Source: Tolypothrix sp. PCC 7910 (GTDB lineage Bacteria; Cyanobacteriota; Cyanobacteriia; Cyanobacteriales; Nostocaceae). From it: a DNA stretch of 64,000 bases. The stretch is taken from assembly GCF_011769525.1 (NCBI RefSeq), contig NZ_CP050440.1:5953501-6017500 (forward strand), in the 5' to 3' direction. The translations under genes were made by a program, and so were the position numbers. A model generated the notes under the pieces. That model saw nothing but the letters and a program-made list of their open reading frames with translations. It did no database searches and was not told where the DNA came from. The first letter of the stretch is position 1. The number at the start of each line of letters is the position of its first letter. Of the stretch, positions 9,164 to 30,439 are shown piece after piece.

Positions 9164-9183
9164 CTTTAGGAGAAGGGCTGTAG
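9164..9183 (+). repeat. 20-bp direct repeat, left flank of ISAs1-like element
   Basis: CTTTAGGAGAAGGGCTGTAG here is repeated exactly at 10358-10377, directly outside the two inverted-repeat ends. It is the apparent target-site duplication, long for this family. Confidence 0.85.
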
Positions 9184-10357
9184 CAGGGTGGTTTCATACA
9201 AACAGAGAAAAATAATAATGATTCATAGGGGGAAATAAAACATTTACAACAGGCGAAGTATGAATCTGCTCGAGCAGTTGCAACAAGTTCCAGACTATCG
9301 GCATATCCGAGGACGAAGACACGAGCTATGGTTAGTTTTGTTGTTAATATTACTAGGAGCAATGACGGGGTACTGGGGTTATCGACCACTGGAGGACTTT
9401 ACTAAGGTACATCGGCAAAGCTTGATTCAAATGTTAGAACTGACAGATGATATTAAGTTTCCTTCATACTCGACATTCCGACGGGTACTAAAAACCATCG
9501 ATTTTCAGCCATTAACAGACTTATTTAATACTTGGGCATTGGCGATCGCCTCACCAAAACCAGAGGAAAGATTAGCAGTTGATGCTAAGAGCATTCGTTG
9601 CACACTGACAGATTATAGTCAGTCATATCAGAACTTTATCTCGGTTGTGTCAGTATTTAGTCACCAACGTGGTGTTGTTGTCCAGATGCAAGCATTTGCT
9701 AATAAACAAGTCAGCGAAGTCGCAGTTGTGCAACAGTTAATATCTGAGTTTACAGATTCTAGCGTCATGTTTACCCTGGATGCTCTGCACTGTCAAAAAA
9801 AACAGTATCGTTGATTATCAATACAGATAATGATTATTTGATTGGATTGAAGGAAAACCAGCCTAAACTCTACAAAATGGCTCAAACTCAATTCCTTCAA
9901 TCACCTCCACTCAGTTGTGCCACAGCTATTGATTCGGGGCATTCCAGAATTGTCAAACGCACTTGCCAAGTATTTGCAGTTCCCGAATCACTTCAAAATC
10001 AATGGGCTGGACTCAAAACATTTGTTGTTGTCGAGCGTCAGGGTGAACGCGATCGCCAACCATTTCACGAATATCAGTTTTACATTTGTAGTCAACATCT
10101 CGAAGCTCAACAATTGCTTGCTGATACTCAAGGACACTGGGGAATTGAAAATCGACTACACTGGGTCAAAGATGTGACATTTTCCGAAGATTTTCCACTG
10201 CGTCGTGGTGGCAATGCTCCTGTCAATTGGGCAATTTTGCACACCTTTTTCATTACGATCGCCAGATTTTTTGGTTTCCGAACTATCCCTCAAGCACAAC
10301 GTGCCTTATCCAACCAACTCCAAAAGGTTTTTTCTCTGTTTGTATGAAACCACCCTG
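9184..10357 (+). mobile_element. ISAs1-like insertion sequence, 1174 bp
   Basis: The ends are a perfect 29-bp terminal inverted repeat beginning CAGGGTGGTTTCATACAAAC; the right copy is at 10329-10357. One DDE transposase, split by a frameshift, fills the element, and its stop codon lies inside the right inverted repeat. Identical 20-bp direct repeats flank the element (9164-9183 and 10358-10377). Identical ends and duplications indicate a recent insertion. The target is a dispersed intergenic repeat. A short relative with the same kind of ends lies at 30185-30338. Confidence 0.9.
9260..10347 (+). pseudogene. ISAs1 family transposase, split by a frameshift in an A run
   Basis: The first frame (9260-9814, 184 residues) has the ISAs1 N-terminus (LLEQLQQVPDYRHIRGRRHE) and two acidic active-site regions, AVDAKSIRCTL and FTLDALHCQKK. 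The second frame (to 10347) carries GLKENQPKLY and the last acidic region, HWGIENRLHWVKDVTF. The switch falls in eight A residues at 9795-9802: reading CAA AAA AAA and slipping back one base gives the expected continuation HCQKKTVSLIINTDNDYLIG. It may be a broken gene or a slippage site used to make the full protein. The whole product would be about 361 residues, normal for the family. Confidence 0.85.
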
Positions 10358-10377
10358 CTTTAGGAGAAGGGCTGTAG
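10358..10377 (+). repeat. 20-bp direct repeat, right flank of ISAs1-like element
   Basis: Exact copy of 9164-9183, starting at the base after the right inverted repeat. After it the sequence continues as ordinary dispersed repeat (GGGTTTCCCTC) up to about 10430. Confidence 0.85.
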
Positions 10378-29390: not shown

Positions 29391-30131
29391 ATGCCGACTA
29401 TGAGTGAACTTCCCAAGAGTCTTGAAGAAGCGATCGCCCAATCTCGCATAGCTACCCAAGCTGCTTTAGCAGATGGCTGTACTCGCTTACAAGTTGAGTA
29501 TTTGTTCCCAGAACTGAAAATGATGCTGGTGGCGGCAGATTTTTTACCGATGTTTGACGAATACGGTTCTCGCTTAAAGATTTTTTTTGCTGATGCTGGT
29601 GCTGCTGCCCTTGCTCGTCGTGAATGGGCAGACAAACCATATAAAATTGAGGATATCGGTACAGGTAGGGCAACTCCTGTCGGGTCAAAAGTTCAGCCAG
29701 AGGATGAAATTTTTCTATTTATTACCCCGACGGCTGTAGAAGTACCGCAGTTGGAAAAACTCTGCCAAGAAATAGGCGATCGCCCCATAGTTCTCTTAAA
29801 TCCCCGCCTCGAAGATGCTGGAACTATAGGTATTGGTTACGCTGGAAGACAAACTCGTGAACGGTTCATTAGTACCATAGAATCTTCTTACTACCTGCGC
29901 CCTGTAGATGATGAAACTGCCGTTTTTCGCTGCTACCCTGGGCTGTGGGAAGTTTGGGTAGAAAAAGACGGCGACTATCAAAAAATCACAGAATTACCCA
30001 ACAGACCTTCAGGTGATGAGTTAGATCTCATCCTGATGAAACAATCCCAAACAGCAACAGACTCTACACCTGCCAAAAAACCAAGTGTGTTTAAGAGTCT
30101 GCAACGATTTATCAAAGCGTTGAGTAGCTAG
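29391..30131 (+). CDS. DUF1995 family protein
   Basis: The 246-residue protein fits the DUF1995 family found in cyanobacteria and plastids: SLEEAIAQSRIATQAALADG, then LQVEYLFPEL, a central domain with DEIFLFITPTAVEV, and LLNPRLEDAGTIGIGYAGR. Two in-frame ATGs exist (29391, 29400). The C-terminal 35 residues are a Lys/Ser-rich tail. Plant members include LPA3-type proteins linked to photosystem assembly, but the function of this one is unknown. Confidence 0.8.
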   Translation: MPTMSELPKSLEEAIAQSRIATQAALADGCTRLQVEYLFPELKMMLVAADFLPMFDEYGSRLKIFFADAGAAALARREWADKPYKIEDIGTGRATPVGSKVQPEDEIFLFITPTAVEVPQLEKLCQEIGDRPIVLLNPRLEDAGTIGIGYAGRQTRERFISTIESSYYLRPVDDETAVFRCYPGLWEVWVEKDGDYQKITELPNRPSGDELDLILMKQSQTATDSTPAKKPSVFKSLQRFIKALSS

Positions 30132-30164
30132 GATTGGGGACTGGGGATTAGGGACTGGGGACTG

Positions 30165-30184
30165 GGGACTGGGATATGAGCAAG
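30165..30184 (+). repeat. 20-bp direct repeat, left flank of MITE
   Basis: GGGACTGGGATATGAGCAAG is repeated exactly at 30339-30358, immediately outside both ends of the element. Confidence 0.85.
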
Positions 30185-30338
30185 CAAGGTGGTTTCATAC
30201 GAAAAAAGAAAAATACATAAGTCTTGATTTCTCGTTTTGTAGCATGGCTTTTTCCCTCTCTCCAAACCTCTCTCCCACGGGGAGAGAGGCTTTGAAACCC
30301 AGTTTTAGTTTTTTCTCTGCTTGTATGAAACCACCCTG
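30185..30338. mobile_element. 154-bp MITE related to the ISAs1-like element
   Basis: The left end reads CAAGGTGGTTTCATAC and the right end, inverted, CAGGGTGGTTTCATAC; both continue into A-rich sequence as in the IS at 9184-10357. The interior is non-coding and holds an inverted GAGAGAGG/CCTCTCTC-type stem (about 30257-30292). Exact 20-bp direct repeats flank it. It is best explained as a non-autonomous element moved by that IS's transposase. Confidence 0.82.
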
Positions 30339-30439
30339 GGGACTGGGATATGAGCAAGGGGCAGGGGAGAAATAATTAATGACAACCCCAAACCCCAATT
30401 ACCCATTACCCATTACCCATTACCAATGCCCCATGCCCA
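30339..30439. repeat. 20-bp direct repeat and STRR tract right of the MITE
   Basis: The first 20 bases copy 30165-30184. They are followed by AATTACCCATTACCCATTAC-type heptamers and ATGCCCC repeats up to the stop of the metalloprotease gene. The target of the MITE was itself heptamer repeat sequence. Confidence 0.7.

Follow-up and report, generated by a model that had tools for sequence, protein, structure and literature searches.

Target-site duplications of 19 to 20 bp in a cyanobacterial subgroup of insertion sequences related to ISAs1

The stretch of DNA analyzed here, which we call the window, comprises 64,000 nucleotides of the genome of Tolypothrix sp. PCC 7910 and contains an insertion sequence of 1174 bp flanked by exact copies of a 20-bp sequence. 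We assign this element to an ISAs1-related subgroup, found here in cyanobacteria and having the ends CAGGGTGGTTTCAT and close variants thereof. Comparison of insertion sites makes it very probable that the transposase of this subgroup joins the element ends to target positions 19 or 20 bp apart. Gap repair after strand transfers at that spacing would then leave the direct repeats of 19 to 20 bp that surround the element. The window also carries a miniature element with ends of the same type and a 20-bp duplication of its own. The features of both, all on the + strand, are as follows.

9164..9183, + strand: left copy of the 20-bp target-site duplication (exact match)
9184..10357, + strand: insertion sequence with an ISAs1-type transposase, 1174 bp, with 15 near-identical copies in the genome
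9184..9212, + strand: left terminal inverted repeat, CAGGGTGGTTTCATACAAACAGAGAAAAA
9260..9814, + strand: transposase ORF1, 184 aa, the N-terminal half, matching DDE_Tnp_1_assoc and the first half of the ISAs1 model
9795..9802, + strand: run of eight A residues at the frame change (-1) between ORF1 and ORF2
9811..10347, + strand: transposase ORF2, 178 aa from a TTG (open frame from 9763), the C-terminal half, ISAs1-type
10329..10357, + strand: right terminal inverted repeat, the perfect complement of the left one
10358..10377, + strand: right copy of the 20-bp target-site duplication (exact match)
30165..30184, + strand: left copy of a different 20-bp duplication, GGGACTGGGATATGAGCAAG
30185..30338, + strand: non-autonomous element (MITE) of 154 bp with ends of the same type
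30339..30358, + strand: right copy of the GGGACTGGGATATGAGCAAG duplication

The ends of the insertion sequence are perfect 29-bp inverted repeats, the 31 bp returned by the repeat-finding tool being due to two flanking bases that pair by chance. When CTTTAGGAGAAGGGCTGTAG was sought in the window with up to three mismatches allowed, it matched twice, both times exactly (9164-9183 and 10358-10377), and it had no matches across 100 shuffles. This window matching confirmed an earlier note, made from the letters of the sequence, which had reported perfect 29-bp ends and an exact flanking 20-mer for the element at 9184-10357. In a search of the NCBIfam library, ORF1 and ORF2 scored 91.9 and 125.9 bits, respectively, against ISAs1 (NF033564), for which the cut-off is 70. 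ISAs1 was the sole NCBIfam match for both ORFs, and neither matched the IS1634 model that the library includes. An Rfam scan of the window returned nothing at the gathering score, and the plasmid collection was without a match.

Elements of the ISAs1 family have terminal inverted repeats that start with CAGGG, a single transposase ORF, and a target duplication of 8 to 10 bp. The window element resembles them in its transposase family, its length (~1.2 kb), and its CAGGG ends, with CAGGGTGG at both termini and CAGGGC in relatives. It differs in having two ORFs joined at an A run, since A8 splits the transposase of the window copy and its 15 own copies have the same sequence. It also differs in duplication length, which is 19 to 20 bp in its clade (below, the long clade) and 9 to 13 bp in relatives with other ends. 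We speak of an ISAs1-related subgroup because the transposase, the ends, and the transposase tree all fit ISAs1, whereas the duplication length violates the 8- to 10-bp rule.

The 19- to 20-bp length was found across the long group. The host genome (8.76 Mb, 7 contigs) contains 15 copies of the element, 14 of them identical across 1174 bp and one across 1173. Ten are flanked by exact duplications, each with a sequence of its own, of which seven measure 19 bp and three 20 bp, and the other five have none; a search of this genome with the ISAs1 model found no transposase beyond the two halves of these 15 copies. Scytonema sp. NIES-4073 (G085) has exact repeats at 21 of 26 copies, with a length of 19 bp at 14 and of 20 bp at 7, and none at the other 5, and one of its copies (L239) is 2316 bp long and bears an additional transposase ORF that resembles IS5-family models (81.6 bits, under the cut-off). 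A single-ORF version of the element, from genomes G695 and G794, had 19-bp duplications in 6/6 and 7/8 fetched copies, respectively (13/14 together).

The full set of distinct clade insertions numbered 101, drawn from 112 loci entered; 107 of these were usable at both ends, no pair being available for L265, L269, and L295 to L297. If more than one pair of ends could be chosen at a locus, the counts use the pair with the longest repeat. Of these insertions, 33 had no exact duplication and 68 did; in the latter the length was 19 bp in 43 cases, 20 bp in 23, and 17 and 21 bp in one case each. No exact duplication of 8 to 16 bp occurred among the 101. As a control, the left flank of each copy was paired with the right flank of another, and a match of at least 16 bp arose in 31 of 10,100 such pairs, versus 68 of 101 true pairs (at least 17 bp). 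The earlier note had treated the 20-bp duplication as a departure from the family rule. This holds with respect to the relatives, with their 9 to 13 bp, but not as a quirk of a single element, as the trait recurs across a subgroup and the length is more often 19 than 20. The 8- to 10-bp copies that the note regarded as contrary evidence are missing from the 68 exact clade duplications.

The targets of these insertions have characteristic borders. In the 19-bp set, the three bases outside the left border are C in 67, 84, and 93% of cases and the first base inside is C in 91%, while at the right border the last base inside is G in 100% and the bases outside are G in 93, 93, and 63%. The 20-bp duplications have the same C/G border pattern in weaker form. 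The long-group target is symmetric and can be written as CCC^C...G^GGG. REP-like and terminator-like palindromes with CCCC/GGGG stems are frequent among the targets.

Sites that lack the element in related genomes bear directly on the origin of the repeats. The joined flanks of five copies (L031, L033, L034, L038, and L039) were searched against eight genomes of the genus, one of them that of the host. The empty sites of L033 (in G013, G015, and G016) and L034 (in G014) matched exactly through the target, with the 20-mer or 19-mer present once. For L039, a copy located within a terminator-like hairpin close to a tRNA-Phe gene, the target was likewise present once, with one substitution in the 20-mer in G013 and G015 and more diverged in G016. 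Other matches to the L034 site (L160, L168, and L169) had substitutions or short insertions in the target, and no clean empty site for L031 or L038 was found among the eight genomes. The window copy's own site is spanned in only one relative, G016, where the target is part-deleted and only its AAGGGCTGTAG portion is present, once; this is no clean empty-site case and neither supports nor refutes a wide cut. Given the single-copy empty sites of L033, L034, and L039, the duplication was made at insertion, at three loci or more. These results support the unusually wide staggered cut proposed in the earlier note, as does the finding that 66 of the 68 exact repeats measure 19 or 20 bp. They also make it barely credible that the repeats were there beforehand, whether through insertion between tandem 20-mers or through copies spreading together with a flanking repeat. 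Some targets are indeed dispersed repeats, and L041 and L044 have flanks in common, as such an origin would predict, but it is rejected at three unrelated loci by the single-copy empty sites and fits poorly with so narrow a range of lengths. Empty sites already holding two 20-mers, to which the note had given weight as evidence against a wide cut, were not found at these loci.

The palindromic nature of many targets raises the question of whether DNA structure, rather than the transposase, sets the length, for instance through a nick at the base of an extruded hairpin or cruciform, the duplication then being as long as the hairpin. The REP-like and terminator-like targets agree with this, as does the L039 target near the tRNA-Phe gene, which folds well as RNA (z = -2.46). 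However, 50 of the 68 long duplications are non-palindromic about their centre (at most 45% pairs) and are still 19 to 21 bp long. A part of these 50 has an off-centre hairpin, in which case the cut does not lie at the base, and L031, L034, L346, L372, and L374 have no obvious hairpin. It is thus unlikely that the duplication takes its size from the length of a hairpin, and we regard such targeting as a very unlikely explanation. It is also conceivable that the cut spans ~10 bp, as in the relatives, and that a second step such as strand displacement or gap resection roughly doubles the repeat. The long duplications are near twice the 10 bp of the canonical relatives, but doubling of this kind is highly improbable in view of their tight length distribution and of the C/G half-sites, which lie at the outer borders as cut points would. 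Strand transfer at positions 19 or 20 bp apart is thus the reading we adopt.

Relatives with other ends have shorter duplications. We entered 117 loci into this survey, of which 110 had usable ends (an inverted-repeat match of at least 13/20), with several copies per genome counted; the relatives were grouped by end sequence and not by the tree, and a few odd-ended rows of the long clade (e.g., L344) fall among the others. Exact duplications of 9 to 13 bp occurred at 49 of the 87 other-ended loci, and none was found at 38. Canonical single-ORF relatives with the ends CAGGGCAAACGCATC and variants (23 loci) had 10 bp at ten loci, 11 bp at one, and none at 12. The 64 other ISAs1 relatives had 9 to 13 bp in 38 cases (one of 9 bp, 17 of 10, nine of 11, ten of 12, and one of 13) and none in 26, and in both groups some of the rows without an exact repeat (12/23 and 26/64) result from wrongly found ends. 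There were no exact repeats of 14 to 18 bp among the other-ended relatives, and a 31-bp repeat beside poor ends (L410) was removed by the end filter. Outside the long clade, copies with exact repeats (L380 to L425) vary by lineage, with 10 bp in G732, G821, and G271, 11 bp in G723, and 11 to 12 bp in G255 and G228. When these short relatives were examined by length, those with 12 bp showed a clear border, with CCC outside and CC inside the cut; the pattern was weak at 11 bp and less still in the pooled 10-bp set, and aligned duplications of the canonical short group had no C-run border pattern.

The C-terminal halves of the transposases were used to build a tree of 90 rows, that is, 105 minus 14 that repeated a locus or copy or were damaged and minus L076, which has a 19-bp duplication and was too short. 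It was rooted at the midpoint, 43 of its rows had no assigned duplication, and the program warned of several long branches. All 14 long rows, including L344, which was scored as long despite a single mismatch in its 19-bp repeat, fell into one clade of 32 rows that contained none of the 33 short rows; the other 18 clade rows had no assigned duplication. Support for this clade was 99/94 when the divergent L360, its most distant long member, was excluded and 91/52 when it was included. The long clade is nested among ISAs1 rows. The tree requires one change of state for long versus short duplications and seven for one-ORF versus two-ORF transposases. Because the long clade has single-ORF members (L342 and L346), the split reading frame is not the cause of the long duplication. 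We also looked for an added domain in the long-clade transposases and saw none, single-ORF lengths being 364 to 370 aa (n = 4) versus 363 to 370 aa in short relatives (n = 6).

Genome G821, whose lineage lies in the sister group of the long clade, is informative here. All four of its exact duplications (L395, L397, L398, and L399) are 10 bp long, and all have CCC^C...G^GGG at their borders. As far as the aligned sequences indicate, this lineage cuts at the same position in the C-run as the long clade, and the spacing alone differs, by 9 to 10 bp. Our preferred reading is that a C-rich half-site (CCC^C) guides each element end separately and that the synaptic complex would act as a ruler, with a distance between half-sites of about two helical turns in the long clade and of about one in the sister lineage. 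The step from 10-12 to 19-20 bp amounts to 7 to 10 bp, which is one helical turn only roughly. We lean, with some reserve, toward the view that the strand-transfer spacing grew once by about one turn, without an added domain and with CCC^C kept, in which case a shiftable synaptic ruler and not the catalytic fold would set the stagger.

Long duplications and mixtures of long and short ones have been described for other insertion sequences. In the IS1202 family, as presented in the passages cited, the transposase tree splits a subgroup with short duplications (3 to 5 bp) from one with unusually long ones (16 to 28 bp) (PMC10132070). The likeness to our case is that of a DDE family with long- and short-duplication subgroups separated on a tree; by the description given there, IS1202 is another transposase group, modelled on TnsB, with a spread of 16 to 28 bp and with no common target in the long group (PMC10132070). 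IS1634 and IS1549 also make long repeats, with reported lengths of 8 to 514 bp that vary between copies (PMC2266710), unlike those of the window clade with its 66/68 at 19 or 20. Relative to IS1202 and IS1634, what is new is the tight 19- to 20-bp length, the defined target, the empty sites at three loci, and the sister group with the same half-sites at 10 bp. Among the titles and abstract openings listed in literature searches, none reported 19- to 20-bp duplications in ISAs1, and ISfinder may record the trait.

Insertion sequences are classified by duplication length, among other characters, according to the cited part of PMC10132070, and this length is thought to mirror the geometry of the strand-transfer complex, according to that of PMC2266710. 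The sister transposases described here are alignable and similar in length and yet differ in duplication (10-12 versus 19-20 bp), which makes the determinant of the stagger directly testable and offers a natural experiment for doing so. In addition, tools that assume 8 to 10 bp for ISAs1 could misplace the ends of long-group elements.

The 33 clade insertions that lack an exact repeat retain traces of the same target. Two of them have inexact repeats, of 16 bp (L063) and 21 bp (L261), each with one mismatch. The left half-site, CC|C, was present at 19 bp in 20/33 and at 20 bp in 20/33, and the right one, G|GG, in 16/33 and 20/33, respectively. At other distances between 10 and 33 bp the mean was ~4/33, with maxima of 10/33 at 21 bp (both sides) and 27 bp (right). 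As the half-sites peak at 19 and 20 bp, these copies fit ordinary insertions whose flanks were later lost, exchanged, or mutated, a reading that applies to the set and is no proof for individual copies. In the copy L066, the flanks are near-perfect inverted copies of one another and not direct repeats, which could reflect recombination between copies lying in dispersed repeats of opposite orientation.

Arrangements like the split transposase of the window element are already known. Published work describes transcriptional slippage on A runs of insertion sequences, including those of Nostoc PCC 7120 (PMC1088944), and the elements in that paper likewise have ORFs that overlap at an A run, there of 8 to 10 A. 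The term ISAs1 is absent from the paper, and its cited passages have no bearing on duplication length (PMC1088944). In our set of 14 full-length relatives, several with other ORF damage, 13 have A8 at the same place of the alignment and the remaining one has A7. The overlap could be resolved in 34 of 49 split rows: 17 have A8 (16 read at -1 and one at +1), 14 have A7 (all read at +1), and three have neither. Slippage of either sign along the A run agrees better with this pattern than a classical -1 site does, and no downstream RNA structure that might stimulate frameshifting was found above chance (z = 0.24). Slippage on A8, whether ribosomal or transcriptional, probably yields an ORF1-ORF2 fusion that would be the full transposase. 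Both ORFs are under purifying selection, with dN/dS values of ~0.10 for ORF1 and ~0.15 for ORF2 between L064 and L066.

The miniature element at 30185-30338 has ends that are 83% complementary. The tool gives its flanking repeat as 23 bp, and a CTG shared by chance accounts for the excess over 20. The earlier note had described this site as showing the same 20 bp as the insertion sequence, which is right as to length and wrong as to sequence, the repeat being GGGACTGGGATATGAGCAAG and not CTTTAGGAGAAGGGCTGTAG. Because a genome of the same genus, G013, has the insertion with an identical duplication (L284), the miniature element represents one older event, separate from the insertion of the window element. 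The corresponding site is gapped in G015 and G016 and is unusable as an empty site. Immediately to the left of the miniature element, at 30131-30179, lie short tandem repeats of the GGGGACT type, and similar stretches are frequent in genomes of the genus. A further miniature copy elsewhere in the host genome (L278) has a 20-bp duplication as well. Finally, a 2887-bp element in G013 (L286) shares the terminal motif, has a 20-bp duplication, and carries an IS1634-family transposase (NF033559, 290 bits) and a 141-aa ORF; it is probably an IS1634 element nested inside a miniature element.
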